Below are positions 509 to 48,687 of a stretch of DNA of 64,000 nucleotides, one piece after another. Origin of the DNA: Arenicola marina. Its lineage: Eukaryota; Annelida; Polychaeta; Arenicolidae. The notes beneath the pieces are model-generated. The model worked only from the letters and a program-made list of their open reading frames with translations, ran no database searches and was not told the DNA's origin. The position numbers were made by a program, and so were the translations under genes. Each line of letters starts with the position of its first letter. Position 1 is the stretch's first letter. The stretch lies in assembly GCA_964019135.1 (NCBI GenBank), contig OZ025250.1, forward strand, positions 53,195,357 through 53,259,356, in the 5' to 3' direction.

Positions 509-1216
509 CAGGTGGCCCTTCCTTTCTGGCGCACTGCAGGAGATCCTCGTGCGGCATGGTAACGTAGGGCAGAGTTCGAGCCATGATGCGGATAAAACTA
601 GTTTGTGACGTCAGAGCCTCTCTGTGAGATACCGGGAGGCGATATTTCGTTCCGGTCTCGTCAATCTTAACGATGTCGGACAGAGCCATGTGATCTAGCC
701 ACTCCTTAACATATCTGGATCAAGAGAACTGGCACTGAGGCGAGACAAACCTTCGTCATAAAGTATATATGTGACATTGCGGGAATACATTGTCTTGTCC
801 GCCTTGTATATAATATATAATAATTATTAAAATGATCACTCACAAAGAATATGTAGATACATTTATTAGGATAATTCTGATCGGGCACAGCAGCTGGCGG
901 GCCTCGCGGAGTTCACTCGACAAATAAGTCGTGTGCGCTAATATAAATAGACCATTCTGGTGGCCTCGAATCTGGGATGAAAGAAAAACTATTTTAAAAA
1001 CAAAGCTTAAATTGTTTCTCACCTCTCCTTGCAGGAGGCGCGTTCAGCAATCTCCGCGGCAGTTAACATGGTGTCCACCTGGGCCATGATGTTAAAGAGG
1101 CCAAGGTCAAGGCCGAATGATAAGTTCAGCGTGGTGTAGGCGGACAAGACGATGTCCTTGATCCTGTCACTGAACGCCTTGCTCGCTGCGTCTGTTGTCT
1201 GACTTCCCTCTGCCAT
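509..1216 (-). CDS. Rv2258c-like SAM-dependent methyltransferase A, exons 1-2 only (partial at left edge)
   Basis: Two coding exons are in the window: exon 1 complement(1023..1216), ATG in ACCATGG context, donor GTGAGA; exon 2 complement(509..714), acceptor CAG at 717-715, donor GTGAGT. The exon lengths (194 and 206 nt) and phases equal those of intact genes B and D. They encode the N-terminal helical/winged-helix-like domain (start MAEGSQTTDAASKAF; exon 2 contains YVKEWLDHMALSDIV and a TMPHEDLLQCARKEGPPG end). The SAM-binding half (exons 3-4) would lie left of the window; the 500 bases before the edge do not contain exon 3. Whether the gene is complete cannot be told: homology to paralogue C ends at 472 in intron 2. 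The two exons show no frameshift or stop. Gene C is its duplicated partner. Confidence 0.8.
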
Positions 1217-1289
1217 GGTCAACTCGATTGGTTTTGTTCTGCCACGAAAGAGGACAAGCGTGAAAAAGCACAGTCTCTTTTTGTGCGCC

Positions 1290-1360
1290 GTACCAATCAC
1301 CGAATCAGGCTGTCAATCATTCACTGACGTCACTGCTGCTTTTATCCAATCATGTGGTGG
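1290..1360 (-). promoter_or_regulatory. Candidate promoter of methyltransferase A
   Basis: Read on the minus strand, this stretch holds an inverted CCAAT motif (about 1346-1350), a TATA-like GGATAAAAG (1339-1347) and a perfect CRE palindrome TGACGTCA (1325-1332), 75-135 nt before the ATG at 1216. The same arrangement is kept upstream of gene C (40950-41020) but is absent from genes B and D. Functional assignment is inference. Confidence 0.4.
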
Positions 1361-3991: not shown

Positions 3992-6230
3992 TACTGACAG
4001 AAGTTCTGTCAGTATACTGCTTTATTCGGTTTGTAAATTTGTTTGTTTGTGTGTTTGTTTATTCGCTCGATACAGGTCGCAATTCAAAACCTACGGTCAT
4101 CAAACTTCACAGAAAGAAAGATTTGGGAAATAGCCCGGCTAAGTTCGTTAATGGCATATGTAGGTCAAAGGTCAAGGTCACAACGATTTTTTGAAAAAAA
4201 ATCGTAGAACGCGAATATCTCCGTTAATATTAGAGCTAGAGATCTCGGACAAGTTTCACAACGTGCTACACTTTATAGCGCATATTTCGGGTAATGTTTA
4301 CTTTTTGATGCGTCATGCTCATTTTTGAGCAAAATGACGTTTTCTGTTTTTTGAAAAAGGAATAAAATGACCTTGAACAGTTTTCTTATAGTTTGACCCA
4401 TTTAAATTGAAGATATCGCTCTCAGTCTCCAGCCGGGGGCCTCCCTGGTGTAGTGGTTAGCGCACTAGACCGCAGATCAATAGGTCCTGGGTTCGAATGC
4501 GGACTCGGGCACCTAATCTGGGGCATGTTTCATTCCTTCATCCTTCATCGTCTCGGGAGGTTCCTTGGCCCAATTTAGCCTGTATGTGCACAAAAGTGGC
4601 CTAAAACACCAACATTCCATTCCATTCCAGTCTCCAGCCTCTCATAGAAATATGAATGACAATAATTTCTGTCAAATCTGAGATTTTTCGTATGCGTCAT
4701 ATGACGCCACGACGACGTCACTTCCGGTACATAGAAAAAATCGTCAAAAATCGAAAAAAAATGTGGGAATTGCGTCATTTTGTAGGGAATAAGGTTTCTA
4801 GTTTAACGTATTAAGAAAAACAATATGTTCCAATCTTACTTCCGGTTCCAGGGGCGATGGCATTTCCTATGGGACTTCCAATGTTAAAGCCGTCTATCTC
4901 TCATGCTAGGAAAATTTGTTTGCCGCGTATTTCAAAGGTGCCTAAGTCCTACAGTGTCAGGATTTTTTCTTCAGTTAAACATGGCACCCAGTAGCCTCGG
5001 TGCTTACTAGAAAAAATTTGGGCAAATAATGACGTCATAGGAATTTTTTGAAATTTGCCCCATTGTGAAAGATAGGAATTTTTGGTGCTTGCAGGGGCTG
5101 CCACGGGCGTCCCATTAGAGTTATCGCCCTAGGCTTGCAGTTGTAGATGGATATTATTAGAATAAGTCATCAACTGTAAACATGGTGACATAGCCCAATA
5201 ACTTTTTGGTATATAGTCAAACGAACTTAACATAGGACCCTATGGAGATTATCAATCTTCCTTCCATATGACGTGCTTCCGATTGAGCGATCTTACTTTG
5301 CTTCACTATTGGGAGAGATGTGGACGAGTGCAAGAGACCTAGGGTGGGTCGACGGCGAAGGCTTGTCTCAGTTTCGTTTCCATGGCAACCGAAGATTTGC
5401 CCAATGATAAAGTATACAAATTCCGTTTAATTTAGAAAATTCGTCAAAATTCGGAAAAACAAGCTAGAGCTTAGATCTTTGCGGATTATGGTAGGGAATA
5501 TACGTATCTAGATCACTATTGGCAGCAAAACATTATTCTTCTTTTCATCTTGACTGCAGAGTCCTTTCTTCGTCTGTTTTTTTTTCATTTATCCGTAATG
5601 ATGAAGAATAGCAATTTTTGGTAATTAGGTCAAGCCATATCAGAAGAGCTGACAATCCTACCGCCGTTCTAGTCAACGTTTTTGATTCATAGTACAAAGG
5701 TTTGTGTTTTGGTATTTGGACGTCGTCGTGCGTCATGCCATGACGTCAGCATGACGTGATGACGTCATAATTTGGTAAATGCCATTACTCGCCTATTATA
5801 CGTCATAGCGACTTCCGGTTTGTTTGAGGTTAAACCTTATACCAAGGGACAACTGGTGGTATGCGTAACTTTCTTGGCGGTATTGAAGCGTGTGCGTCAA
5901 AAATGACGTCCAAGTTTACGTTACCCGACTTAATCGCGAGATCCTCTACGTTGCAACTACTTAGGCACTAGCTAAAATCACTAGGTACATAAGCAGGTAA
6001 AGTGAAATAAAATTGAAGCTAATTTGTTCATTTTTGTAAGCGTCAGTGACGTCATGTGACGTCACGTTGACGTTTCGATGGCAACGGAACTAAGCCCAAA
6101 GTTAAAGTATAGAGAGTCTAGCCAAATTGGAAAATTCAATAAAAATCAGGTGAAGAGAGAGAGAGAGAGAGGAGCTGTACGACATGGGTGCAAGTTACTT
6201 CTGTCAGTCCCATTCAGCCTACGGCTTATT
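3992..6230. mobile_element. About 2.2-kb non-coding insertion with short terminal inverted repeats
   Basis: This block interrupts DNA that is continuous in the other copy (near 43310). It begins with ACTGACAGAAGT (3993-4004) and closes with ACTTCTGTCAGT (6197-6208), a 12-bp inverted repeat; the exact right border is uncertain because about 20 extra bases follow. It has no substantial open frame. Internal landmarks (ggtcaaaggtcaaggtcaca near 4165; aacataggaccctat near 5228) recur at about 27.8-28.0 kb, so it belongs to a dispersed non-autonomous family. A SINE is nested within it (4435-4627). Confidence 0.65.
4435..4627 (+). mobile_element. tRNA-derived SINE with 12-bp target-site duplication
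   Basis: The head is tRNA-like, with an A box (tggtgtagtggttagcgc, about 4446-4463) and a B box (gggttcgaatgc, 4489-4500). A tRNA-unrelated body follows, ending in cattccattccatt. It is flanked by direct repeats CAGTCTCCAGCC at 4423-4434 and 4628-4639. The tail segment (tctcgggaggttccttggccc) recurs as fragments near 13580, 21120 and 17560. Confidence 0.88.
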
Positions 6231-6587
6231 TTATATCGTGTACTTTTACGGCTACAATGTATTATGCAACCCCTTTATATGACAATATAGATATTATTAT
6301 TATTGTGCAAATTATGGTGCAGTTTTTGACACTACCTCTTTTTATCGCGCACATATATTAGCACACATATGCGGTCGGACCCGGCATCCCAGACATCACT
6401 AACAGACCGAATAATATATGACTTATTGTCTCTTAGAAGCAAGTAAAAAGCACGTGATGGTGTCCATAATAGTGGCTGAGGGATGGATGCAAACCGCAGG
6501 GATCTGCAGTGTGTGCTGAGATTGGCTCACTGACTGAAGCCAGAAAGAGAATTTAGACACAAATAACCGGCAAATTACTTTCGCCGT

Positions 6588-7620
6588 TTGTTGGCCAGCG
6601 ATTTATTGATAAGGGTAAAAAGCTGCACGATGCGCGTACACCCCCGCCTATTCCTTTCTCCGGCGTCGGGTCCCAGCGCGTATGAGCCATATATCAGGCT
6701 GGGATCAGGTAACAAAGACTTCGGGACTCCATCTTCTGGCTGTTTCTACCATCACCTTCATTGGCCAACGTGCCAAGCCGCCACACCCAATCGGTCTCAT
6801 ATCTAACGACTGTTTGGATCCAACTGAGGATTATCTACTAGCTGATAACAATGTAGCTGAGAGTTCATTTTTCTGTGTAAATATATGATGATTGTTGACA
6901 CGCCAAAGCAACATTAGCTCAAATTATGTCCTCACTTATATTACAGTTATAACGCTCAACTATGAGGGTGGAATGATATAAGATAGTGAATTTTAAGAGA
7001 GATGAAAGTTACGTCATATCAAAATACACTCTCAAGTGCGCGCGATTCCCATTTGGACATTTTATTGTCTTTAACTTCAACATTATATGTCCATAGATGC
7101 ATACAGCATCAAAGCTCACATGTCAATCTTGTCATAGAGTGAATTCCAATAACGCTAACATGCAATGATATCAAAACTAAACAAGCACCACTCTCCTAAT
7201 TTATTCTATGCGTTTTTAATTAATTTATATAATTATTACAAGTAGAAGGTCGTGTCAACTAATACAATAGCATTAAATCTGAAGGCGTCTAAAATCGCAT
7301 AATCTGACCCAAACCGTCCTATAGCCCCTTCAATAGTCAATCGTTGCCATGGTGACATCACGTGGAATAATGATAGATGATGTCACGCACAAACGCATTG
7401 TGATTATATATTTAAACGGCCCGCCAAGCTGCCACGTTTCTTGGTGACGATGTACTGATATAAGTACTGGTATTGTCCAGAAAAGGCGACCGGCTGACAA
7501 GATATGGGTACGCTTGTAAGCGCTAAACATTTTGCTTCGAACGTTGTATGCAAAAGTTAAATAAAAGACATGTTAACACCCAGGAGATATGTTAGGTAAA
7601 CTGAATTTATATTCAACTTT
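6588..7620. other. Conserved 3'-flank block of the methyltransferase unit (B), no gene seen
   Basis: This 1-kb AT-rich block lies downstream of gene B. It is nearly identical to 43673-44700 (downstream of D). Diverged copies are at 25400-25780 and 63088-64000. Short open frames exist but are not conserved in frame between copies, so I call it a non-coding paralogous flank. A GA microsatellite (about 6149-6168) lies just upstream. Confidence 0.6.
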
Positions 7621-7820
7621 AATAATACTACTAGCGCGTTTTGAATGGCGTGAGACATTTTATTGGACCTTTATCAACCAGTGGCAGCCCTTCATTTTCA
7701 TTATCCGCCCTCGGCCTAGCGCGCCTCGGGGACATAATGAAAATTGGCGGGCTGCTCCAGCTTCATGTACGGCCAAGAAAATTGCCTAACGGCCCGGTAA
7801 CTCGCCCTATTGTTATATTG
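7621..7820. mobile_element. Long-TIR palindromic MITE abutting the stop codon of gene B
   Basis: Two inverted arms of about 75-80 bp (left: ctagcgcgttttgaatggcg...gcagccc; right: gggctgctccagcttcatgt...caatag) surround a GC-rich centre. The right edge lies within a few bases of the gene B stop codon (7821-7823). On the minus strand the far arm supplies AATAAA at 7664-7659, about 157 nt after the stop, the first good poly(A) signal. Relatives are at 21895-22082 and 25780-25870, with half-arms near 8.9 and 39.4 kb. Confidence 0.75.
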
Positions 7821-10814
7821 TCAGCAAGATGATTTAATTCCGTGCAAGAGAACATCGCCAGACGCCAACGATGTGACGGCGATGGGGGTGAAGCCGGCAG
7901 CCTGCATGAGGACCCCAAGGGCCTCTCGGCCCACACAGGCCCCGAGGGCCTGGCTTCCCTCCAGCGCCATAGAGGCCGGGACACAATGATACAGGCTCAG
8001 CGGCAGCATCATCCTTCCTTTCTCTCGCTCAGCCGGGATCTGCAGTGATTCGTATTTATTGGTCTGTATGTCAAACTCGATCACGGCGCAACGCCCTCCC
8101 GGCTTCAAGCAGCGAAGGGCTTCTGTCAGGGCTCGCGACGCCAAGGGGATGTCGTGTAGAGCGTAAAGCATGTAGATGAAATCAAACTTCTCGCTCCAGT
8201 CCGGAGGCCGAGCGGAGGCGTCGCCCTGGACGAACTTGATGTTTGCCAGGTTCGATTCCTCAGCCTTCTTGGTTGCTTTGAAGACGGACGGTTCGACGAT
8301 ATCGATGCCGGTCACGTGACTTTTCGGATATCGTCGAGCGAACTCCAGAGCGACTTCACCGAAACCGCAGCCCATGTCGCAAACAGAGATGCCTTTTTCT
8401 GAAAAATAAATTGTACCAAAATTTCTATATCAATTCCGCATAAAAATGTCACTATAACAAATGCAAACACGGGGACCGACCAGGCCACATCTTCCGATTA
8501 CAGGTAGAATCTCATATTACAATCGCGAATTATACTCCAAAGACCTGACGACCGAGGGATGAATGAAAGCCATTAACTTGAATGCTGCTGCCATACCAAG
8601 GTGAGTCTCAATGTCGGGGATGTTCTGGACAAATCCGTCCAGTAATTGACGTTCTGGTTGGTCTCTCATATCGCCCATGATTTCCCGAAACATCCTCTCA
8701 ACAGCACTGAACGGAAGGCCTGGAATACAATGTATGCATACAAAGCCATTGTCATCTTGGACGGTGACTTTAACGCAGGTTTCAGCGAAAAGTTCAACAC
8801 ATTCACTCGGGGCCGACCAGGTAGCTCAATGGGCTAGAGCGCCAGCATTGAGTGCTCTGCTCACATGAGACCGAGACGGAGAAAATGAAGGACTGCTACA
8901 GATTGATAAAGGGCCAATAAAATGCTTAACGTAATGCAAAACTTGCACTATTACTATTAGATATATTAGGAGTTAAATTTAAATTCTAGTTTACCTCACA
9001 TATGTGCTGGGTCTCCTTGCTTCTTTGGTTTAACTCTCGCATATCACATTCTAAGTAAAATGTTTAGCCTTCCTAGACCTTGTGAACCAATCGCCTTGCA
9101 CCTTATCATTTATTAGATGTCACTATATATCGACCATGAAACGGCTCGCGCAGCTAGAAAACTAGCCGGTTAGGCGGGCCGTTTAAATCCATCACCACAA
9201 TCACCATAATTCTTTTGTGCGTGACGTCATGTTTTATTGGTCTACGCCATGTAACTATGGCAAGGATTGACTATTGAAGGTGTCACATGGCGGTTTGGGT
9301 CAGATTGCAGGCTTTTAGCGGCTTTCAGATTTTATGCTATTGTACTAGTTGACACGACCATCAACGTAATAATAAGTAATAATATAAGTACATAAAATGT
9401 TATATATGGGTGCTTAGGCTTGAGCAGATGAAGGCTAGCATGATCAAATGATCTCCTGGGCCAGTAACATGGGGGTGGATGAAACCATGCCCCAAACCTG
9501 GCCACTATCCCATAAACCAGAGAGACTTTTAAATACAGTATACCGAAAAAGAAACTTACTTTGCAAATATAAAACTTATAAAAATGAATAAACATAACAA
9601 CTAATCAACTTCCGTCTTGGGATAACGATGGGCATACTCACCAGGTGGTCCTTCCTTCCTGGCGCACTGTAGTAAATTAAATATATTATACCCCCCCCCC
9701 CCTACCCCCCAAAACAAATTATCTTGCCATAATAATTTTAAAAAAACACAATAATAATTAAACGTAATTAGGCACAACAACGAATCAATTCAATAATAGA
9801 ATAATGCCGGGAGTACAAACCTGGTGGCCCTTCTTTTCTGGCGCACTGCAGGAGATCCTCGTGCGGCATGGTAACGTAGGGCAGAGTTCGAGCCATGATG
9901 CGGATAAAACTATTTTGTGACGTCAGAGCCTCTCTGTGAGATACCGGAAGGAGATACCTTGTTCCGGTCTCGTCAATCTTAACGATGTCGGACAGAGCCA
10001 TGTGATCTAGCCACTCCTTGACATATCTGAATCAAGAAAATTGGCATTGAGGCTAGACAACCCTCGCCCTAAAGTAAATATAAGTGGGGCTGCATCGTCT
10101 TGTCCGCCTTGTATTTATATGTATAGATATTAAAATAATCTCCTAGAACGAATATATAGATACATTTATTAGCAGATTTTTCAAAAGGTCTGCTGGCCAG
10201 AGCGGTCGTAGCTTGAAATGTTGAGGGGTATATAATGGTGGCAAAATGAATGGGAATTTATACATAGCAGAATTGAAACGGGAATGGCATAGTCCGTTCA
10301 TCTTGTGTTAGACAAGCACATTTTAAGCTATACATGCCATATAGCGTCTGTGGGGAGGATCGTGAGCCAGAACGGAGCCATGCCCCGGAGTAACGCCCTA
10401 ATCTTGATTTTTTGAATTCTGAACGAGATTAGATATTAACACAATGGGGCGGCACGGCGGCTGACTGGCCTCGCGGAGCTCACTCGACAAATAATGTGTG
10501 TGCGCTAACAACTAGATCATTCGGGTGAGCTCGAATGTGGGATGAAACAAACACCTTTTTAAAAAACAAAGGGTTAGGGTTAGGCTTAGGGTTAGGTTTA
10601 GGGTTGAAATTGGTTCTCACCTCTCCTTGCAGGAGGCGCGTTCAGCAATCTCCGCGGCAGTTAACATGGTGTCCACCTGGGCCATGACGTTAAAGAGGCC
10701 AAGATCAAGGCCGAATGATAAGTTCAGCGTGGTGTAGGCGGACAAGACGATATCCTTGATCCTGTCACTGAACGCCTTGCTCGCTGGGTCTACTGCCTGT
10801 CTTCCCTCTGCCAT
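7821..10814 (-). CDS. Rv2258c-like SAM-dependent methyltransferase B (intact, 4 coding exons, 366 aa)
   Basis: Exons: complement(10621..10814), (9821..10026), (8597..8719), (7821..8398); phases fit and total 1101 nt with stop. Residues about 10-110 form a helical/winged-helix-like N-terminal domain. Motif I VCDMGCGFG (about 180-188) is the SAM-binding glycine loop, GID (about 205-207) the acidic strand-2 end, QGDA (about 232-235) the adenine-side motif, and RCLKPGGR a post-motif typical of class I methyltransferases. This matches the small-molecule Rv2258c-like family; the substrate is unknown. No signal peptide or membrane segment, so cytosolic. The start is ACCATGG. Exon 2 uses a weak donor GTTTGT because its 3' end has been duplicated (see 9642-9672). 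A MITE touches the stop codon. D is its near-identical duplicate; B differs from C and D at FIYMLYAL, where those have FIYMRHAL or a close variant. Confidence 0.92.
8808..8970 (+). mobile_element. tRNA-like head joined to a MITE half-arm, in intron 3-2 of gene B
   Basis: It starts with a tRNA-like stretch (ggtagctcaatgggctagagc, an A-box-like motif) and runs into gactgctacagattgataaagggcc...aatgcaaaacttgcactatt, which is the right arm of the long-TIR MITE family. The same arrangement stands at 45889-46051 and, better preserved, at 39326-39510. It lies in the intron between exons 2 and 3. Confidence 0.55.
9642..9672 (-). repeat. Relic duplicate of the 3' end of exon 2, with its original donor
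   Basis: About 31 nt matching the end of exon 2 (GCGCCAGGAAGGAAGGACC) followed by the consensus donor GTGAGT used in gene A lie about 150 nt beyond the working exon 2 end (9821). The DNA in between (9673-9820) is AT-rich with a C-tract. The same relic is present in gene D near 47514-47544. It indicates a local duplication or insertion at the exon 2 boundary before the B/D split. Confidence 0.65.
10571..10605 (+). repeat. Interstitial telomere-like TTAGGG tract in intron 1 of gene B
   Basis: About five TTAGGG-type units, two of them variant (gcttagg, tttaggg), sit in intron 1 just next to the exon 1 donor. The same tract is present in gene D (48443-48478). Gene A and gene C intron 1 lack it. 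Confidence 0.8.
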
Positions 10815-10879
10815 GGTCGGCTCAATAGGTTCTCTGCCACGAAAGAGGACAGACGTAAAAAGGCACAGATCGTTTTTGA

Positions 10880-11140
10880 GGGTCATGCAAATTATGAATA
10901 TCAAAAGAGGGCAAGGAACATGCGGTGAAGGGAAAGAGGGGGAAGGGGGGGAGGGCGGAGGAGGGGAGTGGTAAATGGGAAAAAAGTACCATCGGTTTAA
11001 CTAAGACGCTTTAAAGCTGACGATCGGGTGAGGGAGGGGGGGGGGGGAGTCGGTTCTACATAACATAACATAACAACAGAAAATGCTGTAACAGAGAAAA
11101 CAGTTAAATTCTGACGTTTTACCCCCAAGGGGTCACGCGG
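10880..11140. other. Upstream region of gene B with promoter unlike A/C
   Basis: Homology to gene A's 5' flank stops about 65 nt before the ATG (near 10880) and resumes near 11140 (tcgagtcatgccacagctaataac). The replaced stretch contains an ATGCAAAT octamer (10884-10891), G-rich runs and a poly-G tract (11036-11048). Gene D carries the same replacement. No TATA box is clear. Confidence 0.4.
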
Positions 11141-11264
11141 GATTATTTCGAGTCATGCCACAGCTAATAACTTAAACATGAAGCGCCCTCCCCCCACACC
11201 CCGTCGTCGGTTTCTGTCCCGCCCCGCGCGAGTATCAATTAGAGATTGGGCGGGCGAGACTTAT

Positions 11265-11462
11265 CTGCCCGCGCCCGCCCCGCACCCGCGTCCCAAGCCC
11301 CTTTGCGGCCCGCGCCCACCCCGCGCCCACAATAACCTGCCCGCGCCCACCCCGCACCCGCAACGACTTGCCCACGGGCGCACGCGCCCGCACAGAGCTG
11401 CCCGCGCCCGCTCCGCGCCCACAATAACCTGCCCGCGCCCGCCAAGCGCCCACAACGACTTG
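11265..11462. repeat. GC-rich minisatellite (cccgcgcccacaataacctg type)
   Basis: Tandem imperfect units of 20-30 bp of the type cgcgcccacaataacctgcc. The duplicate at 49138-49351 has one more unit. The long GC-rich open frames over it on both strands are composition artefacts. Confidence 0.75.
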
Positions 11463-12641
11463 CCCAAGGAATTATGGCATTATGTGCCATAATTCCGTTT
11501 GTTGGCTTCAGCACTGGTCCCAAGGTGAACCTTTCACCTTGCAGCTATGACAAGTGCGCTTTCTGAGAGCAGGAATGTCACCCACTCACGCGTCCTTTCA
11601 GCGACGCCATTTTTCACCGTGCATTGTCTGCCAGCAGCAGTAGAACTATTACCGCCTCCCCGCTTCCACCACCGAACACGGTCAACCATTATCCACGTCG
11701 TCAACAAAAAATATCAGCTCATCCACCGCCAAACTCATCACCACTGTATTGAATACGGAGAGCGTCACAGCTGGTCTTCAAAATAAACTACGGTATTCAG
11801 GGCTGCGATGTTTGGCAACACACCGAAGTAAGCATCAGGCCCTTTAACATGGAAATTATGTCATCACCAGGCCGCTAAAATGTCGAATATCGAACAAAAT
11901 AGCATAACTAGAGCTACAAAGTATGAAGTATCAAATGTGGAAGTAAAAGAGGAAGTAAGTCATCCGGATAGCGCGAGCTATGCTGGTTACCCGCACAAGT
12001 CATCGCTATCGGGGTACAAAGTCCCCGATCCGGTACAAGTTGGGATTCAAGCCAGGGGGTTGATGAGGCATCGCTACGGCCTCCAATGGGGTCCCGGGCC
12101 CGCGCGGGGGCGGGTGGAGTCTGGGGTGGGGGCACAACGGGGGAGACATAAACCATTGCGCCGCCCAAATTATTCCTTTTTCACATGTTTTCTCTTTCCC
12201 CGGGGCAGAAACATTTTCTCTTCATCTGCCCATCTAAGACTAAAAATTTGTGGCTTTCTTTCCTTTTGTTCTCGCATATTCCCATGATTATCACTTATCG
12301 ACCTGCATCCGCCCCTGTTTAAGATATGTGTACACCACCTATATAATATGTAGTAAGCAGTAACCTCCGGGATTCGGGATAACTGTTTAATTATCTACGT
12401 GAAGCGATAACAACTTAGTATTATGTTCGGGATTTGCTCTCCTATCTTTTATTTACTAAACCACGTGGGCCAAATCTACATACTGGTTGGGTGTCGTCTT
12501 TTCTTTACAAATCCGATATCCATGCTTTTGCGAGTGGAATAATATCAAACTTCACGATCTGTACACCCCCCGACACATCTTGACTGCATTACACCAGAAA
12601 AGGCCCGGTTTTTGGACTGACGATTCTAACATCCCTAAACC

Positions 12642-12714
12642 TAGCCCCAGTTCTGTGGCTGTAGACGGGCCCTGTCAAATTTTTGCCCGTCCTACAGCCA
12701 CAGAACTGGGGCTA
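12642..12714. mobile_element. 73-bp foldback element with 8-9 bp target duplication
   Basis: The inverted arms tagccccagttctgtggctg and its complement enclose a short loop; the inner acgggc/gcccgt also pairs. It is flanked by CCCTAAACC on both sides. The duplicate locus (about 50541) has a single uninterrupted ccctaaaccc, so it is a clean empty site. An 8-9 bp duplication fits a hAT-type non-autonomous element (inference). Confidence 0.85.
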
Positions 12715-12780
12715 CCCTAAACCCACCGCTCACTTAGGCTTGGACTGCGTGTGGCACGGCGCTCGTCTGCCCTATAAACA

Positions 12781-13700
12781 ACAACTTCCACGTGGATACT
12801 TAGCTATTCGTGACGTGACGTCCCAGCCCCCAATAGCAGTGGTAAGGATTGGGAGGGGGGGGGGGGGGGGTTGCGAAGTCACACACCGGTGACCTCATAC
12901 ATATTCTTAGAGCACGCTGATCTAGCAAGTACGGGCAAACAAACGGCTTGAAGCTGAGGCGCGCATGGTTAAACCCAATGGGAGTATGGCGGCCTCGGAT
13001 GTTTTTCCTTTGATAAAACTATCACAGGACCACGTTCCTGGAGTCATATTTAATGGTGTTGAGACAATACTTAACAACACTCATGTACCGGTTTATTTTG
13101 TTTACGTTATAAATAAAAAGATCACTGCATATATAGTCAATAACAGTAAGAGCACCGAAATGTACACCGACCATAGGATCAAGTATAGTTAACGTACCGT
13201 CTGCAATTGAAACGCGCAATGCTCTGTACCCATCTCTTTTGACCCTGTACGGTTATATAGAGGTGCAAGCATTATACAGCCTCCCTGTTTCTCAATGGGG
13301 TGGGCGTGCCCGGTGGTCACTTCATACGATATTGTTATTATACAGATTTATGTCGCGCTGAGGCCGATACAGTATCAGCTTGGGTGGTGGCAGGAGGGTG
13401 GGGCGGAAACAATGTACATAGTTATCCAGGCACTGCGAGGGGGCGCAATGCTCGATATAAGGGGGGGGGGCAGCAGCCGTTGTTCGCCTAGGTTTAAGAG
13501 CCTATGTGCCCCTACTCCACCCATCCGTTGTCACCCCCCTTCCCCCCCCCCCATCCAGTTTCATCCAACTTTATTTCATTGTCCCGGGAGGTTTCTTGGC
13601 CCAAGTCTTTTTTTATCTGCAAGCCGCATTTCACATGTTTTGTCTTAGACCTTAGCATTATATATCGTGGTTCTTTTATGCACATGTTATGTTGCTGAAC
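12781..13700. repeat. Internal older duplicate block, copy a
   Basis: This block, starting ccacgtggatacttagctat and ending near a SINE-tail-like tcccgggaggtttcttggccc, is repeated with divergence at 20335-21250. Poly-G and poly-C runs (12855-12870, 13460-13470) lie inside. No coding exon is recognised. The following block 13695-14340 likewise recurs at 22885-23590. Confidence 0.7.
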
Positions 13701-15002
13701 CTGAAGCTGATATGGACATCACCGCAGATTACGTGGAAGTGGTGTCACTTGAGTATATCACAATATATTTTGTCTCACAACTTAAAATCGAGAGTACCGG
13801 GAATATGTCTTAGGCCACCAGATAGTCATGTAAGTATACATTTTCTAGTGCATCCTTCGGGCTTCCAAATAAAAGCATATCGGGAAAGTTGTCTTGAGCT
13901 TTTACCCCACACATAAGATAACTTAATCAATGGTTCTTGGAAGTTAATCAGGCCCCACACAACAAGTACTACAGCCCTAACTTAGCTTGTGCACCCCCCG
14001 CCCCCCTCCGGGCGCGTCCGCCTACGACCCTCCTACCAGATCCCTTTACAGTACAGTGATAACATAATTTTATTGATGTTAGTTGAATTTTGTAGATTAA
14101 AATAAATAACTCCCTAAATATCTCGCGCACTGATCTACCTAATTCATCGTGCGGGTCTCAACTGTCTGACTTCCTGGCCTGCTCGTGTAAGTAGCAATAC
14201 GTGGCTTCTTGCGTGAGTGTGTATGTGGCGGGGGGGGGGGGGGGGGGAGGCAGGGGGCGGGGGGCAAGGGGGGGCTCTTGTGTGGTCAAGATATGATTGT
14301 AAAGTAACCCATCCCCTTAACAAATATTCCACTCAAAGAATTTTTGGTAGATTTTGGAAGTGCGACTCCTAGATACTAGATAAGAGAGGAGAGAGAATAA
14401 CGGGGTTGACTACTATTACAATTTGTTTTGGGTAAATGCTTAGGTTGCCCGGACTAAAATGTAAAGGTACATGCGCGTGTGATGTGGTGCTTATGAGCAG
14501 CTTGCCGCGACTGCATAAGGATAAAAAAATAGCCTAACCGGCCAATCTAGACGTCTGCTTTTTCGAGTACGGCTGGTGATAGCGCGACCTGAACGAGACG
14601 TATTGCCAAGCAGCGCTGCAGCGTTGCAAACTCGATATCGGTGCATAAAACATAAAATAGATTGCAGGGACGTTCAGAGTAATGAACTCCACATTGTTAA
14701 CAAGGCGGCCATGGTGTGTTCATCGTGGTAGTTTTGTCATTCAACTTCTAAACAGCTGCTACCCAGTCAACCGGTTTATATACAAGGGTTATCGCTAACA
14801 AGATGCTATGCTAAAAATACGGCGCAATGTTCGCTGGCGTGCATCTAGCAGCAAAACTACGTTGACCGGCGGCCCTTGCATGTGTCAGTGCTTGTAACAC
14901 GACGCGACCCTGGATGAAGAGTAAAACCCACTGGGTTTTATTCAGATTGTTCTCTCAAGGCATTATTTTGCTCTAGTTTAGTGTGTTTGAGTCCTCGCAA
15001 GA

Positions 15003-15189
15003 CATGGGCGGATCCAGAGGTGGGGGGGGGGGGGCGATCCGGCCCCGCCCCCCCCCCTTTTACGGCCGAAATTTATACAATTTATACCATTGAACATATG
15101 AAAACCATAACCGGCCCCCTATCCAGCATATCTATCCAGTATACCTGAAACCCGCTCCCCCTTATGCATATTTTCTGGATTCGCCCCTG
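15003..15189. mobile_element. hAT-like MITE with about 16-bp imperfect TIRs
   Basis: The left end CATGGGCGGATCCAGAGG and the right end, read inverted, CAGGGGCGAATCCAGAAA are imperfect inverted repeats of the CAGGGGCGGATCCAG type. No clear target duplication is left. It has long G and C tracts in the centre. Its duplicate is at 52834-53014. Confidence 0.6.
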
Positions 15190-15469
15190 TAAAACGACAT
15201 TTCCGCGTCGTGCCCCTTTGACATTAAGTTACACGTAAAATCCGGAACTCAGGTGGATGTAAAGCCTCCGAGTAAACTAATTTATTAACCCAACGGATGG
15301 CTTTGTTGTAGCTGCTCACGTGACACACATATAGTATAAGACTATATACATGTACATGGTTTGTTTGTTTAGATAGCAGTTTAGAATAACCCCCAACTCT
15401 TTAGAAGAAATCCATAGGATCTATTCCCTGCACGGACATATATTTTCCACTGAGGAATTCACATAGGCA

Positions 15470-15616: not shown

Positions 15617-15693
15617 GTTGCAACTGCAAAATATACTTCCCAATGGCAAAATATCGACATGGGAAACTGTTAACATAGCAGAATGTCTACTCA

Positions 15694-21890: not shown

Positions 21891-21894
21891 ATGA

Positions 21895-37691: not shown

Positions 37692-37974
37692 TCCTCTCTT
37701 TGCGAATTATTTCTTTCTGTGTTATCCAAAGAAATATTCCATATGATGAAGCTCCATTGACCACAAACGTCAGCCATTTAACAAACTAAAACAAGGAGCG
37801 TGCGCGAATGGTTGCCATTGGATGCAATTGAGACAATGAATACAGTACACGTCATAACAAGCACGTGCTCCTCCTTTTAGCTTATTAAGAGGCAGACGTT
37901 TGTGGTCAATGGAGCTTCATCATATGGAATATTTCTTTGGATAACACAGAAAGAAATAATTCGCAAAGAGAGGA
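37692..37974. repeat. Perfect 79-bp inverted repeat with 125-bp spacer
   Basis: The left arm 37692-37770 (tcctctctttgcgaattatt...) and right arm 37896-37974 are exact complements. The outer edge of the right arm is the exact point where exon 4 of pseudogene C stops. It is a breakpoint signature or a foldback element. The spacer has no coding content. Confidence 0.9.
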
Positions 37975-40875
37975 TACAGTGATACAGGCTCAGCGGCAGA
38001 ATCATCCTCCCTAATTGCCGCTCAGCTGGGATCTGCAGCGATTCGTATTTATTAGTGTTTATATCGTATTCGGCCGCAGCCCAACGCCCTCCCGGCTTCA
38101 AACAGCGGAGAGCTTCTGTCAAGGCTCGCGACGCCAAGGGGATGTCGTGTAAAGTGTGCCGCATGTAGATGAAATCAAACTTCTCGCTCCAGTCCGGAGG
38201 CAGAGCGCAGGCGTCTCCCTGGACGAACTTGATGTCTGCCAGGTTTGATTTCTCAGCCCGCTTGGTTGCTTTGAAAACGGACGGCTCGACGATATCGATG
38301 CCAGTCACGTCACCTTTCGAATAGCGTCGAGCGAACTCCAGAGCGACTTCACCCAAATCGCAGCCTATGTCGTAAACAGAGATGCCCCCTTCTGGAAAAT
38401 AAAATGTACCGAAATCTCGATGTCAATTCCACATAAAAATGTCATTATAACAAATGCAAACACGCGAACCGACAGCGTAGCATCTTCCGACTAGAGGTTG
38501 CATCTCATATGACAATCGAAAGATATTCACCAAAGAGCTGACGACGGAGGGGAACGCCACATTTCAGAAATGGCTGTATAGCTGTGTTCATCCGTAAACC
38601 GGTAACAAAAATACGTAAGCGCCGGTAGCACGACCCTACGAACAAGGGTTTCTCGATCTTTGAGGCCCTTGCTTCATCCACCGCTATCACAGCCCACGAA
38701 GAGTGAACCAAATAGTGTATTTCATTTCAACGATTGTTGGCCAAAACGGCTTTAGCTAACATTATGCTCATGTGTGTATCCGGCTACAGGCAGAGTATTT
38801 GAAGCTCGCCAGCAACCAGGTAGGTCGTTGACACACATCATTATTAATGTAAATTATAATTGTATATATGGAGCCGTGGAAAGGAAACCAGAAAGTAGCT
38901 TACAGATCAAACAGTTGTATAATGGGTGAAGTAGTGGGTAATACGTTGAATGGACTAACGAATCCCCCCTGCTGCGGGAATGATCATAGAACGATTTGAT
39001 CTTCAGGCAGAAACAAATATCTATAGAAGCACAGATAATGTTAATAATTTTCTGTTCAGAATGCAAATACTATTGCTCGAATTAAGCCATTTAACGTGAA
39101 TGTCGCTGTCATACCAAGGTGCGCCTCAATTTCGGGGATGTTCTGGACAAATCCGTCTAGTAATTGATGTGCTGGTTGGTCTCCCATATCGGCTTTTATC
39201 TCCCGAAACGACCTCTCAACAGCACTGAACGGAAGGCCTGGAATACAATGCATGCATACAAAGCCATTGTCATCGTGCACGGTGATTTTAACGCAGGTTT
39301 TAGCGACTAGTTCAACACATTCACTCGGGGCCGACCCGGTAGCTCAGTGGGCTAGAGCGCTCGCATTGAGTGCTCTGGTCACCTGAGACCGCACTCGGCT
39401 TTGCGGCAGCGTGCGGATAATGAAAATGAAGGGCTGCTACAGATTGATGAAGGGCCGATAAAATGCCTAACGTAATGCAAATCTCGCGCTATTGCTATTA
39501 GATATATTATGTTAAATATAAATTCTAGTTTACCTCACGTATGTGCTGGATCTCCTTGCTTCTTTGGTATAACTCTCGCATACCACATTCGAAGTAAAAA
39601 ACCACAATCACCACAATTATTTTGTGCGTGACGTCATGCTTCATTGTTCTACGCCATATAACTATGGCAACGATTGATTATTGAAGCTGTCACATGGCGA
39701 TTCGGGTCAGATTGTAGGCTTTCAACTGCCTTCTGATTTTATGACATTGTACTAGTTAACACGACCATCAACTCGTAATAATAAGTAAATAATGTTAAAA
39801 AAAATTATGCATGGGTGTTGATAGCATGAACGAGATGCAAATGCAAATATCAAAACTTATACAAAAGAAAATCAATTAAACAGAATTAAACATTACAACT
39901 AATCGACTTCCATCTTGGCATAACGATGCGAATACTCACCAGGTGGCCCTTCCTTTCTCGCGCACTGCAGGAGATCCTCGTGCGGCATGGTAACGTAGGG
40001 CAGAGTTCGAGCCAGGATGCGGATAAAACTACTTCGTGACGTCACAGCCTCTCTGTGGGATACCAGAAGGCGATATTTCGTTCCGGTCTCGTCAATTTTC
40101 ACGATGTCGGACAGAGCCAGGTGATCTAGCCATTCCTTGACATATCTGGATCAATAGAACTGGCATTGAGGCGAGACAAACCCTCGTCATAAGTATATAT
40201 GTGACATTGCGGGAAAACATCGTCTTGTCCGCCTTGAATATAATATATAATATATATTAAAATGATCACTCACAAAGAAAATGTAGATACATTTATTAGG
40301 ATAATTTCCAAGTTTTCTGGCCGGAGCGTTCCTAACTTCAATCATTTAAGGGCATATAGCGGTGTCAAAATGAATTAAAACGAGATTGGTATGGTCGGTC
40401 CATGGGCGTTGAGTTGCACACTTTGAACTATAAATGCCTTCGTCGGCCAGAGCGGAGCCATGTTCTGGGGGTAACCCCCTACTCTTCAGTTCTTTATCCT
40501 GCACGAGCATAGACATTAACACAATGAGGCGCAAACCGCCAATTTCGGGCACAGCAGCTTTAGGGCCTCGCGGAGTCCACTCGACAAATAAGTCGTGTGC
40601 GCTAATATAAATAGACCATTCTGGTGGCCTCGAATCTGGGATGAAAGAAAAACTATTTTAAAAACAAAGCTTAAATTGGTTCTCACCTCTCCTTGCAGGA
40701 GGGGCGTTCAGCAATCTCCGCTGCAGTTAACATGGTGTCCACCTGGGTGATGACGTTAAAGAGGCCAAGGTCAAGGCCAAATGATAAGTTCAGCGTAGGC
40801 GGACAAGACCATATACTTGATCCTGTCACTGAACGCCTTGCTTGCTGCGTCTATTGTCTGACCTCCCTCTGCCAT
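37975..40875 (-). pseudogene. Rv2258c-like methyltransferase C, broken copy
   Basis: Four exon homologues keep the array's splice sites: complement(40687..40875), (39940..40145), (39115..39237), (37975..38391). Exon 1 has a 5-nt deletion relative to gene A (after LSAY), which shifts the frame. The SAM motif I reads YDIGCDLG where B and D have CDMGCGFG, losing a glycine of the loop. Exon 4 is cut off after LPLSLYHC at the edge of a perfect inverted repeat; the last 52 residues are missing and the frame runs on into unrelated sequence to 37877. The remaining exons are open (for example MGDQPAHQLLDGFVQNIPEI in exon 3). It is closest to gene A in exons 1-2 and upstream DNA, as expected for the duplicate of A. 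Confidence 0.85.
39326..39510 (+). mobile_element. tRNA-like head plus MITE arm in intron 2 of C
   Basis: This is the best-preserved version of the element at 8808-8970: ggtagctcagtgggctagagc, then gcggataatgaaaatgaagg and gctgctacagattgatgaag into the MITE right arm. Confidence 0.55.
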
Positions 40876-42850: not shown

Positions 42851-44701
42851 CTGTCAAAAGAGCAAAACACAGCACTGAGGGGGACGTGTAACGGAACGTT
42901 GTCCTATGGTACGCGGAAGCTGCATAAACCCCACCATTAGTTGACACAAATCATTTACGTATATATGCAAATCGTTCATAAATGTCGAAGTGTGTGCCAA
43001 AAAAATATCGCACACATGCGAGTCACGAATGTCACAAATTGCAATGCAACACTAAATAGTGAATACAACAGAACACTGAATATTGCAGGCAGGTTATTCT
43101 TTGGAACTTCAGCCGTCATTTGAGGAAATATAAGGTGTTGAAGCAGATGTGCTCGCTCGGTGGCAGCCATTGTGCGCGCGGCGTACCTCATACTCCTGGC
43201 CTTCAGCAGAGCTTTCTGCTATTGGCCAGATTATTTTTCTGTGTTACAATATCGTATTTTCATTATCAAGTACAAGCTTATAGGCTTATGCTTCGGCTTC
43301 AGCTTTTATTATTTTATTATTTTATATCGTGTACTTTTACGGCTACAATGTATTATGCAATCCCTTTATGTGACAATACAGATATTATTATTATTGTGCA
43401 AATTATGGTGCAGTTTTTGACACTACCTCTTTTTATCGCCCACATATATTAGCACACATATGCGGTCGGACCCGGCATCCCAGACATCACTAACAGACCG
43501 AATAATATATGCCTTATTGTCTCTTAGAAGCAAGTAAAAAGCACGTGATGGTGTCCATAATAGTGACTGAGGGATGGATGCAAACCGCAGGGATCTGCAG
43601 TGTGTGCTGAGATTGGCTCACTGGCCAGAAAGAGAATTTAGACACAAATAACCGGCAAATTACTTTCGCCGTTTGTTGGCCAGCGATTTATTGATAAGGG
43701 TAAAAAGCTGCACGATGCACGTACACCCCCGCCTATTCCTTTCTCCGGCGTCGGGTCCCAGCGCGTATGAGCCATATATCAGGCTGGGATCAGGTAACAA
43801 AGACTTCGGGACTCCATCTTCTGGCTGTTCCTACCATCACCTTCATTGGCCAACGTGCCAAGCCGCCACACCCAATCGGTCTCATATCTAACGACTTTTC
43901 GGAACCAACAGAGGATTATTTAATAGCTGATAACAATGTAGCTGAGAGTTCATTTTTCTGTGTAAATATATGATGATTGTTGACACGTCAAAGCAACATT
44001 AGCTCACATTATGTCCTCACTTATATTACAGTTATAATGCTCAACTATGAGGGTGGAATAATATAAGATAGTGAGAGAGAGATAAAAGTTACGTCATATC
44101 AAAATACACTCCCAAGTGCGCGCGATTCCCATTTGGACATTTTATTGTCTTTAACTTCAACATTATATGTCCATGGATGTATACAGCATCAAAGCTCACA
44201 TGTCAATCTTGTCATAGAGTAAATTCCAAATAACGCTAACATGCAATGCTATCAAAACTAAACAAGCACCACTCTCCTAATTTATTCTATGCGTTTTTAA
44301 TTAATTTATATAATTATTACAAGTAGAAGGTCGTGTTAAGTAATACAATAGCATTCAATCTGAAGGCTTCTAAAATCGCATAATCTGACCCAAACCGTCC
44401 TGTAGCCCCTTCAATAGTCAATCGTTGCCATGGTGACATCACGTGGAATAATGATAGATGACGTCACACGCAAATGCATTGTGATTATATATTTAAACGG
44501 CCCGCCAAGCTGCCACGTTTCTTGGTGACGATGTACTGATATAAGTACTGGTATTGTCCAGAAAAGGCGACCGGCTGACAAGATATGGGTACGCTTGTAA
44601 GCGCTAAACATTTTGCTTCGAACGTTGTATGCAAAAGTTAAACAAAAGACATGTTAACACCCAGGAGATATGTTAGGTAAACTGAATTTATATTCAACTT
44701 T

Positions 44702-44901
44702 AATAATACTACTAGCGCGTTTTGAATGGCGTGAGACATTTTATTGGACCTTCATCAACCAGTGGCAGCCCTTCATTTTCATTATCCGCCCTCGGCCTAG
44801 CGCGCCTCGGGGACATAATGAAAATTGGCGGGCTGCTCCAGCTTTATGTACGGCCAAGAAAATTGCCTAACGGCCCGGTAACTCGCCCTATTGTTATATT
44901 G
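44702..44901. mobile_element. Long-TIR MITE abutting the stop codon of gene D
   Basis: Duplicate of 7621-7820. It supplies AATAAA (minus strand, 44745-44740) about 157 nt after the D stop codon. Confidence 0.75.
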
Positions 44902-47900
44902 TCAGCAAGATGATTTAATTCCGTGCAAGAGAACATCGCCAGACGCCAACGATGTGACGGCGATGGGGGTGAAGCCGGCAGCCTGCATGAGGACCCCAAG
45001 GGCCTCTCGGCCCACACAGGCCCCGAGGGCCTGGCTTCCCTCCAGGGCCATAGAGGCCGGGACACAATGATACAGGCTCAGCGGCAGCATCATCCTTCCT
45101 GTCTCTCGCTCAGCCGGGATCTGCAGCGATTCGTATTTATTGGTCTGTATGTCAAACTCGACCACGGCGCAACGCCCTCCCGGCTTCAAGCAGCGAAGGG
45201 CTTCTGTCAAGGCTCGCGACGCCAAGGGAATGTCGTGTAGAGCGTGCCGCATGTAGATGAAATCAAACTTCTCGCTCCAGTCCGGAGGCAGAGTGGAGGC
45301 GTCGCCCTGGACGAACTTGATGTTTGCCAGGTTCGATTCCTCAGCCCGCTTGGTTGCTTTGAAGACGGATGGCTCGACGATATCGATGCCGGTCACGTGA
45401 CTTTTCGGATATCGTCGAGCGAACTCCAGAGCGACTTCACCGAAACCGCAGCCCATGTCGCAAACAGAGATGCCTCTTTCTGAAAAATAAATTGTACCGA
45501 AATTTCTATATGAATTCCGCATAAAAATGTCACTATAACAAATGCAAACACGGGGACCGACCGGGCCACATCTTCCGATTACTGGTAGAATCTCATATTA
45601 CAATCGCGAATTATACTCCAAAGAGCTGACGACCGAGGGATGAATGAAATCCATTAACTTGAATGCTGCTGTCATACCAAAGTGGGTCTCAATGTCGGGG
45701 ATGTTCTGGACAAATCCGTCCAGTATTTTATGTTCTGGTTGGTCTCTCATATCGGCTTTCATTTCCCGAAACATCCTCTCAACAGCACTGAACGGAAGGC
45801 CTGGAATACAATGTATGCATATAAAGCCATTGGCATCTTGGACGGTGACTTTAACGCAGGTTTCAGCGAAAAGTTCAACACATTCACTCGGGGTCGACCC
45901 GGTAGCTCAATGGGCTAGAGCGCCCGCATTGAGTGCTCTGCTCACCTGAGACCGAGACGGAGAAAATGAAGGACTGCTACAGATTGATAAAGGGCCAACA
46001 AAATGCTTAACGTAATGCAAAACTTGCACTATTACTATTAGATATATTAGGAGTTAAATTTAAATTCTAGTTTACCTCACATATGTGCTGGGTCTCCTTG
46101 CTTCTTTGGTTTAACTCTCGCATATCACATTCTAAGTAAAATGTTTAGCCTTCCTAGATCTTGTGAACCAATCGCCTTGCACCTTATCATTTATTAGATG
46201 TCAGTATATATCGACCACCCATTTGGTTCCCCCACCCATTTCCGACGTGTCTCGGTATCCATTACGAAACAGCAATGATTTGTTCCAACCACGGTTGATG
46301 AAAACGTATTCTCGCAATTGCTTCTTGTGGAGGACGATTCGTGCTTGGAACAGACTGCCTGGTGATGTAAGAGAATCTACATCCATTGACTGTTTCAAGT
46401 CTTCATATAAGACGTTATACTTCCAACCATGCAACAAGTTGTATAATATGTTCTCCGGTCACGGCGCCATCCAGCTTAGCAGACTGCGTATGGGCCTAAG
46501 TGGTCTCAAGGGCCGCAGACACAAATATGGTTTTGTTAGTGATAACATATGTGAATACTGTCTGACACAACCTGAAGATACTATCCACTATATACTTAAG
46601 TGTCCGGCCTTTACAGCACACAGAAACCGACTTTGTGAAGACCTATCCTTTCTAGAACTGTACAATGTAAGACTAATCCCAACTACCAAAAATAATTGTG
46701 ACATCCTATGCGACCTGCTCCTCCACGGTTCATCTGCATTTACCATTGAAGATAACACATCAATGTTTCAATCTATTATGCGCTACATAGTCAGTACCAA
46801 ACGTTTCTCGTGATAATCTTTTCCTAAGATGTTATACTGATTCTTGCCCTACTGATCAATTATGTCACATGATTGATTTGTTTCTGTATTTGCATTGCTG
46901 CTGATCAATTTACATTTCTGTTTGTTCTTTCCGAGGTGAACATTAATATGTGAATTCGCTGTTGTGAACCTCGTAAAATAAATAAAGTTTATATATATCA
47001 ACCAAGAGATGGCTCGCGCAGCTAGAAAACTAGCCGGTTAGGCGGGCCGTTTAAATCCATCACCACAATCACCATAATTCTTTTGTGCGTGACGTCATGT
47101 TTTATTGTTCTACGCCATGTAACTATGGCAACGATTGACTATTGAAGATGTCACATGGCGGTTTGGGTCAGATTGCAGGCTTTTAGCGGCTTTCAGATTT
47201 TATGCTATTGTACTAGTTGACACGACCATCAACTCGTAATAATAAGTAATAATATAAGTACATAAAAATGTTATATATGGGTGTTTAGGCTTGAGCAGGG
47301 GATGAAGGCTAGCATGATCAAATGATCTCCTGGGCCAGTAACATGGGGGTGGATGAAACCATGCCCCAAACCTGGCCACTATCCCATAAACCAGAGAGAC
47401 TTTTAAATACAGTATACCGAAAAAGAAACTTACTTTGCAAATATAAAACTTATAAAAATGAATAAACATAACAACTAATCAACTTCCGTCTTGGGATAAC
47501 GATGGGCATACTCACCAGGTGGCCCTTCCTTCCTGGCGCACTGTAGTAAATTCAATATATTATAGGCCCCCCCCACCAAAAAAAAAATTATTTTGCCATA
47601 ATAATTTTTAAAAAAACCAATAATAATTAAACGTAATTAGGCACAACAACGAATCAATTAAACAATAAAATAATGCCGGGAGTACAAACCTGGTGGCCCT
47701 TCTTTTCTGGCGCACTGCAGGAGATCCTCGTGCGGCATGGTAGCGTAGGGCAGAGTTCGAGCCATGATGCGGAAAAAAAAACTATTTTGTGACGTCAGAG
47801 CCTCTCTGTGAGATACCGGAAGGAGATACCTTGTTCCGGTCTCGTCAATCTGCACGATGTCGGACAGAGCCATGTGATCTAGCCACTCCTTGACATATCT

Positions 47901-48687
47901 GAATCAAGAAAATTGGCATTGAGGCTAGACAAACCCTCGCCCTAAAGTAAATATAAGTGGGGCTGCATCGTCTTGTCCGCCTTGTATTTATATGTATAGA
48001 TATTAAAATAATCTCCTAGAACGAATATATAGATACATTTATTAGCAGATTTTTCAAAAGGTCTGCTGGCCAGAGCGGTCGTAGCTTGAAATGTTGAGGG
48101 GTATATAATGGTGGCAAAATGAATGGGAATTTATACATAGCAGAATTGAAACGGGAATGGCATAGTCCGTTCATCTTGTGTTAGAGAAACACATTTTAAG
48201 CTATACATGCCATATAGCGTCTGTGGGGAGGATCGTGAGCCAGAACGGAGCCATGCCCCGGAGTAACGCCCTAATCTTGATTTTTTGAATTCTGAACGAG
48301 ATTAGATATTAACACAATGGGACGGCACGGCGGCTGACTGGCCTCGCGGAGCTCACTCGACAAATAATGTGTGTGCGCTAACAACTAGATCATTCGGGTG
48401 AGCTCGAATGTGGGATGAAACAAACACTGTTTTAAAAAACAAAGGGTTAGGGTTAGGCTTAGGGTTAGGTTTAGGGTTGAAATTGGTTCTCACCTCTCCT
48501 TGCAGGAGGCGCGTTCAGCAATCTCCGCGGCAGTTAACATGGTGTCCACCTTGGCCATGACGTTAAAAAGGCCAAGATCAAGGCCGAATGATAAGTTCAG
48601 CGTGGTGTAGGCGGACAAGACGATATCCTTGATCCTGTCACTGAACGCCTTGCTCGCTGGGTCCACTGCCTGACTTCCCTCTGCCAT
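44902..48687 (-). CDS. Rv2258c-like SAM-dependent methyltransferase D (intact, 4 coding exons, 367 aa)
   Basis: Exons: complement(48494..48687), (47690..47898), (45678..45800), (44902..45479); 1104 nt with stop, all phases consistent. The domains are as in gene B: winged-helix-like N-terminus, SAM loop VCDMGCGFG, GID acid, QGDA, CLKPGGR. Compared with B it has one extra residue in exon 2 (SFFFRIMART for SFIRIMART, from an in-frame expansion of an A-run), QIDET for KIDET, MAKVD for MAQVD, and keeps FIYMRHALHDI where B has FIYMLYALHDI. Intron 2 is longer than in B because of a LINE end (46218-46991). It has the same weak exon 2 donor GTTTGT, the same telomere-like tract in intron 1 and the same MITE at its stop codon. 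Likely cytosolic; substrate unknown. Confidence 0.92.
46218..46991 (+). mobile_element. 5'-truncated LINE 3' end with 13-bp target duplication
   Basis: The frame to the stop at 46811-46813 encodes an ORF2 C-terminus: YPLRNSNDLFQPRLMKTYSR, WRTIRAWNRLPGDVR, then LSRLRMGLSGLKGRRH and a C-x2-C-x8-H-x4-C motif (ICEYCLTQPEDTIHYILKC). The 3' end is aataaataaagttt. Flanking repeats TATATATCGACCA (46205-46217) and TATATATCAACCA (46992-47004) are the target duplication. The matching site in gene B (about 9118-9150) is empty, so it inserted after the duplication, or was lost from B. Orientation is opposite to the host gene. Confidence 0.85.
47514..47544 (-). repeat. Relic duplicate of exon 2 end in gene D
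   Basis: Counterpart of 9642-9672, with the consensus GTGAGT donor. Confidence 0.6.
48443..48478 (+). repeat. Telomere-like tract in intron 1 of gene D
   Basis: Same five TTAGGG-type units as at 10571-10605. Confidence 0.8.

Follow-up and report, generated by a model that had tools for sequence, protein, structure and literature searches.

The genome of the annelid Arenicola marina contains a tandem array of about ten genes that almost certainly belong to the Rv2258c-like methyltransferases. Part of this array lies in a 64,000-nucleotide stretch of contig OZ025250.1 (assembly GCA_964019135.1), hereafter referred to as the window (C3:53195357-53259356, where C3 is our label for the contig). 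Positions given without a contig are those of the window. The array represents a recent tandem amplification of an established kind of methyltransferase, in annelids, for which a survey published in 2022 had reported none by its authors' criteria (PMC9548181).

Ten methyltransferase genes in tandem

Copies were detected by comparing the exons of one window gene, D, with stretches of C3 (200 kb) and of another contig, C9 (20 kb), and by a search of the whole assembly (867,369,267 bases, 762 contigs) with D; the counts from that search are lower bounds. Ten copies, designated A to J from left to right, were found on the minus strand at C3:53192805-53382910, over about 190 kb, the array continuing rightward past the window. 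A sequence-only reading of the window, which this analysis followed up, had described a tandem array of four copies with the same four exons in an animal genome, two of them intact. Four copies do touch the window, A with exons 1 and 2 only, B and D complete and open, and C broken, and the count of two intact genes is right for the window content. The array itself is larger, and four recognizable exons are present in each of its ten copies. The bounds given in that reading, 509 and 48687, are the last base of copy A exon 2 and the first base of the copy D start codon.

Six copies are open without an internal stop and encode proteins of 366 (A and B), 367 (D, F and H) and 363 (J) amino acids with exon 3 models corrected as described below. 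The other four (C, E, G and I) are broken. In C, E and G exon 1 is shorter, with a frame change, and exon 4 is truncated; E and G additionally have an exon 3 of different length, and E a stop in exon 4. Copy I is interrupted by one stop in exon 2, and its exon 4 has lost a short piece. The intron phases, which had been proposed to be the same throughout, are 2-1-1 in seven copies of the array, while the exon lengths of C, E and G disturb the frame.

All three introns have GT-AG ends in every copy. Their lengths in the open copies are 308-7411, 759-1889 and 198-1203 bases. At the end of exon 2, B, D, F and H have the donor GTTTGT, and the remaining six copies GTGAGT. All exons listed here are on the minus strand. 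Copy A exon 1 (1023..1216, start codon 1214-1216) encodes the first part of a winged helix and has donor GTGAGA in phase 2; exon 2 (509..714; PF21320, 3.6e-7; phase 1) encodes the remainder, and exons 3 and 4, also open, fall outside the window on its left side (C3:53194111-53194233, and downward from 53193376). The copy B model consists of exons 10621..10814, 9821..10026, 8597..8719 and 7821..8398, the last including the stop codon and encoding the class I methyltransferase domain (PF13847, 3.3e-24). The corresponding exons of copy D are 48494..48687, 47690..47898, 45678..45800 and, with the stop codon, 44902..45479 (methyltransferase domain, PF13847, 1.3e-25). In copy C, exon 1 (40687..40875, 189 bases compared to 194 in open copies) is broken by the frame change, exons 2 and 3 are modelled at 39940..40145 and 39115..39237, and exon 4 (37973..38391) lacks its last part. 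A 108-nucleotide inverted repeat (37692-37799 / 37867-37974) is present at the break.

Exon 3 starts at ttccag|GCCTTCCG (GLPFSAV..., position 45800 in D). A start further upstream, in an open reading frame (ORF; 45598-45906 in D), was considered and rejected. The same-frame open stretch just before exon 3 (ATGSTPSECVELF...) is intronic, because its two halves are in different frames in A and J, because nothing corresponds to it when the protein is aligned with Rv2258c, and because exon 3 of a paralogue on C9 begins at the corresponding GLAYSSV.

In B, D, F and H a second copy of the exon-2 3' end, followed by GTGAGTA, is present about 140 bases downstream of exon 2 (47552-47517 in D and 9678-9643 in B, minus strand). 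It is a possible alternative exon; of the two donors, the GTTTGT of the main exon is the weaker. Intron 2 of B, C and D contains a tRNA-like stretch, GGTAGCTCAATGGGCTAGAGCG, on the plus strand and thus antisense to the genes, about 100 bases upstream of exon 3 (8820-8841, 39338-39359 and 45901-45922; 0-1 mismatch, chance expectation 0.00). Our guess is that it is a remnant of a tRNA-derived short interspersed nuclear element.

The array proteins combine a winged helix with a class I methyltransferase

Each open copy encodes a protein of about 366 amino acids in which an N-terminal winged helix (HTH_65, exons 1 and 2) is joined by a short linker (exon 3) to a class I S-adenosylmethionine (SAM)-dependent methyltransferase domain (exon 4). 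In Pfam searches spliced D matched HTH_65 (3.8e-17, residues 27-100) and Methyltransf_31 (3.5e-25, residues 177-288), both above cut-off. Paralogous genes on two other contigs, C9b and C8, likewise passed the cut-offs for both families. The N-terminal HTH_65 (PF21320) scores were 62.7 bits for D, 49.6 for C9b and 41.1 for C8, with a cut-off of 24.1. In B, C and D, exon 4 scored above the PF13847 cut-off. The SAM motif D-x-G-x-G-x-G is present in five of the six open copies (A, B, D, F and H) and altered in J.

Searches of PDB by sequence and of NCBIfam were carried out with a version of D with 35 extra residues at exon 3 (402 amino acids). In PDB the best match was Rv2258c (5f8c, E 5.8e-32), followed by TnmJ (4.1e-16); in NCBIfam none of the best 25 of 47 matches reached the cut-off. 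The AlphaFold model, which covers methyltransferase exon 4 of D only, has a mean pLDDT of 88.8. Six Rv2258c chains lead its fold matches (TMq 0.89-0.91, root-mean-square deviation 1.4-1.8), with TnmJ at rank 7 (0.84). The input alignment for this model contained 42 rows, two window frames and 40 bacterial sequences, and because bacterial family members are among them the fold match is not independent of the sequence match. Rv2258c (5f8c, 5f8e, 5f8f) shares the winged helix and class I methyltransferase layout with D but is bacterial and 29% identical to it in the methyltransferase domain. TnmJ (8g5s), which we take to be a natural-product enzyme, aligns with D in both halves; it is also bacterial, with 24% identity in that domain. 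The family proposed from the sequence alone, an Rv2258c-like winged helix plus class I methyltransferase, is thus supported by Pfam, PDB sequence and fold matches.

An animal protein of this kind appears to be known. RIPS-1 of Caenorhabditis elegans (R08E5.3), a target of dithiothreitol (DTT)-resistance screens, has 365 amino acids with PF13847 at 175-283, and in the available parts of two reports it affects thiol/sulfide responses (PMC9548181, PMC9090326). By length and domain position (367 amino acids and 177-288 in D) it looks like the same kind of enzyme as those encoded by the array. RIPS-1 has several close paralogues (R08E5.1, R08F11.4, K12D9.1) and, according to the survey passages available, homologues in nematodes, bacteria including mycobacteria, archaea, one fungus, lancelet, starfish and sea urchin (PMC9548181). 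Unlike the nematode genes, those of the annelid form an array of ten with pseudogenes and 35-38-kb duplicated units.

The array grew by repeated segmental duplication

Self-comparison of the array (matches of at least 1,500 bases) revealed blocks of up to 15 kb. Within the window a segmental duplication has its left copy, with gene B, at 6226..25780 (blocks 6226-9136, 9124-12641, 12715-16987 and 16734-25780) and its right copy, with gene D, at 43317..63468, about 37.1-37.9 kb downstream and 96.2-98.1% identical. Units C/D, E/F and G/H each contain one broken and one open gene. C/D and G/H are offset by 98.6-98.9 kb, with 98.1% identity over the longest block and 92.4-99.2% over the blocks listed; E/F and G/H are offset by 35.8-38.0 kb, with 93.2-99.3% identity. 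From these offsets we infer repeated copying of a unit of about 35-38 kb.

At the protein level A and J are 84.6-90.4% identical to other open copies, and B is 94.3-94.6% identical to D, F and H. Exon 4 of I is 82% identical to that of D. The six open copies together span 84.6-99.5% identity, which supports, for the array itself, the lineage-specific expansion suggested at the outset. The older copies are retained under purifying selection. The ratio of nonsynonymous to synonymous substitution rates (dN/dS) is 0.26-0.35 in nine of 15 pairs of open copies, those involving A or J, and 0.51-0.57 for B against D, F and H; values of 0.60-0.91 in the three pairs within D, F and H are based on 3-6 differences and are uninformative.

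Similarity as high as that between units C/D, E/F and G/H (98.1% over the longest block, 15.0 kb, and 92.4-99.3% over listed blocks) is largely within the range of allelic differences in marine invertebrates. The array could therefore be partly or largely an assembly artefact, with alternative haplotypes of one locus placed side by side. We consider this improbable, since three units cannot all be two haplotypes of one and A, B, I and J are clearly distinct. Some of the three units may be alternative haplotypes; at worst this would lower the copy number, and the array would stand.

Both halves of the window duplication contain minisatellites of 35-base and 10-base spacing (19445-19927 and 57144-57626; 19204-19432 and 56903-57131). 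The long ORFs that accompany them look spurious.

Introns are shared with distant paralogues

Outside the array, relatives were found as a pair on C9 (20.21-20.23 Mb) and a single gene on C8 (23.49 Mb). Their identity to array copies, or among themselves, is 28-42%, measured on whole proteins or on the methyltransferase exon. In C9b the exons end at the same places as in the array, with phases 2-1-1 (assigned by eye), and C8 has the same exon ends and phases, its exon 3 start being read as TTCCAG|GATCA. Since the intron positions are common to the array, C9 and C8, the introns are older than the split of these loci. The earlier remark that the introns are well settled is supported by this agreement of three positions and phases at 28-42% identity. 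C9a (C9 ~20216890-20217440) lacks the SAM-binding motif region of exon 4, which its tandem neighbour C9b retains.

Intron 2 of the C8 paralogue (C8:23487801-23495800, minus strand) contains a minisatellite of more than 3 kb with one frame open for about 1,180 codons, a giant ORF that is probably spurious. A further tandem array of methyltransferase genes is suggested at C17:13815158-14001885, where weak exon matches to Methyltransf_31 occur in three pairs (13.82, 13.92 and 14.00 Mb). The methyltransferase matches on C1, C5, C11 and C17 are not among the six PF21320 matches listed, which are all on C3; the C8 and C9 genes were missed there as well, so this does not exclude them from the family.

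Bacterial relatives form a separate part of the tree

The query for a scan of genome_contigs, which has one genome per species for 84,980 prokaryote species, was an alignment that combined D, C9b and C8 with part of Rv2258c. The scan yielded 284 pattern-matched stretches, with a bias to loci that match two peptide patterns; 171 were relatives, and 80, from many phyla, were kept. Identities and the tree are based on 78 of these, as L088 and L115 were dropped as too short. Two scans of viral_contigs revealed no viral relatives.

The highest identity between any of eight genome proteins (A, B, D, F, H, J, C9b and C8) and any of the 78 bacterial rows was 33.8%. In an unrooted maximum-likelihood tree of the 86 rows the eight are on one side of a single branch with 100/100 support, on a long stem with no bacterial row inside. 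The branch was present in 100% of 200 bootstrap trees, for which convergence was 0.989 where 0.99 was wanted. The tree program warned that long branches meet at this point; a quick tree without C8 gave the same split, with an SH-aLRT of 100. Nesting within a bacterial clade, which the sequence-only reading had named as the outcome that would support transfer, was not observed, and no donor is apparent. As the tree is unrooted, it neither shows nor excludes an ancient transfer, and no close bacterial source is present in the sample. The old horizontal origin considered earlier, if it predates animals or falls early in their evolution, is compatible with the tree.

A relatively late acquisition of a bacterial gene by the annelid lineage, with the expansion coming afterwards, is a different matter. 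The family is widespread in bacteria, as the yield of the scan shows, and in the survey passages available many animal groups are without it (PMC9548181). Yet a late transfer is hard to reconcile with the low identity to every bacterial row, with three paralogous loci sharing three intron positions and phases, with the single branch on its long stem, or with homologues in nematodes, lancelet and echinoderms. We regard it as highly improbable, and a recent bacterial transfer was rejected on identity, common introns and the tree. Contamination was rejected too: the genes have introns, lie 53 Mb into a 60-Mb contig and have relatives with the same introns on two other contigs. Homologues spread through all animals would have spoken against the earlier view; published homologues are from some animal groups and not from all, which fits neither a private acquisition nor an all-animal family.

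Possible substrates

The enzymes would use SAM to methylate a small molecule, for which a thiol or sulfide is the likeliest candidate. On the whole we favour, with moderate confidence, the reading of the locus as a ten-gene annelid array of Rv2258c/RIPS-1-type enzymes that methylate such a molecule. A thiol substrate as such, suggested by analogy, is put forward tentatively. DTT was raised as a possible RIPS-1 substrate, with no proof in the passages available (PMC9090326). The proposed kind of reaction is known from other proteins: MddM1, MddM2, MddH and human TMT1A/TMT1B are described in the accessible text as SAM-dependent H2S and methanethiol S-methyltransferases (PMC12904073). MddM1 and MddM2 were rejected as members of the same family; by their description they are of UbiG/UbiE type and, at 204-210 amino acids, too short for the two-domain layout (PMC12904073).

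Several observations weigh against a thiol- or sulfide-methylating, RIPS-1-type array. Conservation in at least 80% of the 78 bacterial rows holds for 75 alignment columns (start M included), and 50-54 of these are matched in the open array copies. Among columns invariant in all 78 rows several differ, for example at D residues 128 (F>A), 131 (G>E), 254 (D>H or Y) and 262 (P>A). Given these changes, the substrate may be shifted relative to bacterial members. Copy J has EIGCCFG for the D-x-G-C-G-x-G of the SAM motif, and copy A has E at invariant D208. Upstream RCGTG sites of the hypoxia-inducible factor type are not raised in nine of ten copies (3-5 per kb compared to a background mean of 3.4); copy A alone, with 10, is above the 95% value of 7, and the count is uninformative. 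The link to RIPS-1 is made by length, domain position and published bacterial and mycobacterial homologues rather than by sequence comparison, and RIPS-1 presumably carries the HTH_65 winged helix. Finally, the survey, by its authors' criterion for a homologue (identity of 30% or more across 90% or more of RIPS-1), lists none in plants, insects, flatworms, annelids or vertebrates in the passages available (PMC9548181).

Some of the same evidence can be read in favour of a specialised metabolite as substrate, with O, N or C methylation as in TnmJ and a defensive or signalling compound as product. Among PDB relatives TnmJ comes second both in sequence and in fold, several near fold matches are the natural-product methyltransferases RebM, NovO, CouO and MitM (a likeness of the general catalytic domain), and the changes at bacterially invariant columns would fit as well. 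The neighbourhoods of the bacterial homologues, for which 64 of 214 ORFs in 1.5-kb flanks were scanned, contained no recurrent biosynthetic family among the best 25 of 108 matched families. The commonest families among those listed were AraC-type helix-turn-helix and DJ-1/PfpI proteins (5 of 64 each), a hint that a recurrent regulator adjoins the bacterial methyltransferase; a phenazine-biosynthesis-like protein was matched once. As a guide to the substrate these neighbourhoods were uninformative. Natural-product methylation, an early suggestion for this array, thus received no specific support. In addition, the sole animal member with a known phenotype that was found acts, as far as the available passages go, in the thiol/sulfide response (PMC9548181, PMC9090326). 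We therefore consider a specialised metabolite rather unlikely and retain a thiol or sulfide as the favoured substrate.

If so, the array would increase the ability of the animal to neutralise H2S or other thiols. The more specific proposal is that annelids keep a RIPS-1-type thiol/sulfide S-methyltransferase family and that this lineage amplified it to an array of ten genes, at least one of them (J) diverged, dedicated to sulfide/thiol detoxification as a supplement to mitochondrial sulfide oxidation; we offer it as speculation that is doubtful at present. In open-licence literature searched by title or opening of abstract, no paper on Rv2258c-like or RIPS-1-like genes in annelids was found. 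RIPS-1 homologues of marine invertebrates are already published, uncharacterised; what is new is the annelid example of a gene type known from some animals. The several open copies of such a young array are near-identical natural variants that could help to identify the substrate of this methyltransferase type. In this annelid one could also test whether amplified SAM-dependent thiol methylation accompanies sulfidic or low-oxygen habitats.

Other features of the window and the host genome

An inverted repeat in several pieces is present at 31695-32326 / 34388-35297, with arms 85-93% complementary and 2-3.3 kb apart. Long ORFs on both of its strands have no Pfam match. Nine window ORFs other than those of the array genes gave no match in Pfam, and a search of the window against Rfam gave 0 matches.

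The mitochondrial contig, C762 (15,942 bases), contains a COX1 frame with 13 TGA codons that reads through with the invertebrate code; its ATA and AGA positions are, we assume, M and S in other animals. The genes, named by eye, with the two rRNAs placed by position around tRNA-Val, are on one strand in the order cox1-cox2-atp8-cox3-nad6-cob-atp6-nad5-nad4L-nad4-(rRNAs)-nad1-nad3-nad2. In the available part of a comparative study the departures of this order from the bilaterian one are listed as characteristic of annelids; Clitellata, Maldanidae and Terebellidae are reported there to have a major non-coding stretch separating atp6 from nad5, which C762 has too (PMC2639372). The animal host deduced from the window sequence is therefore borne out by an annelid-type mitochondrial gene order.

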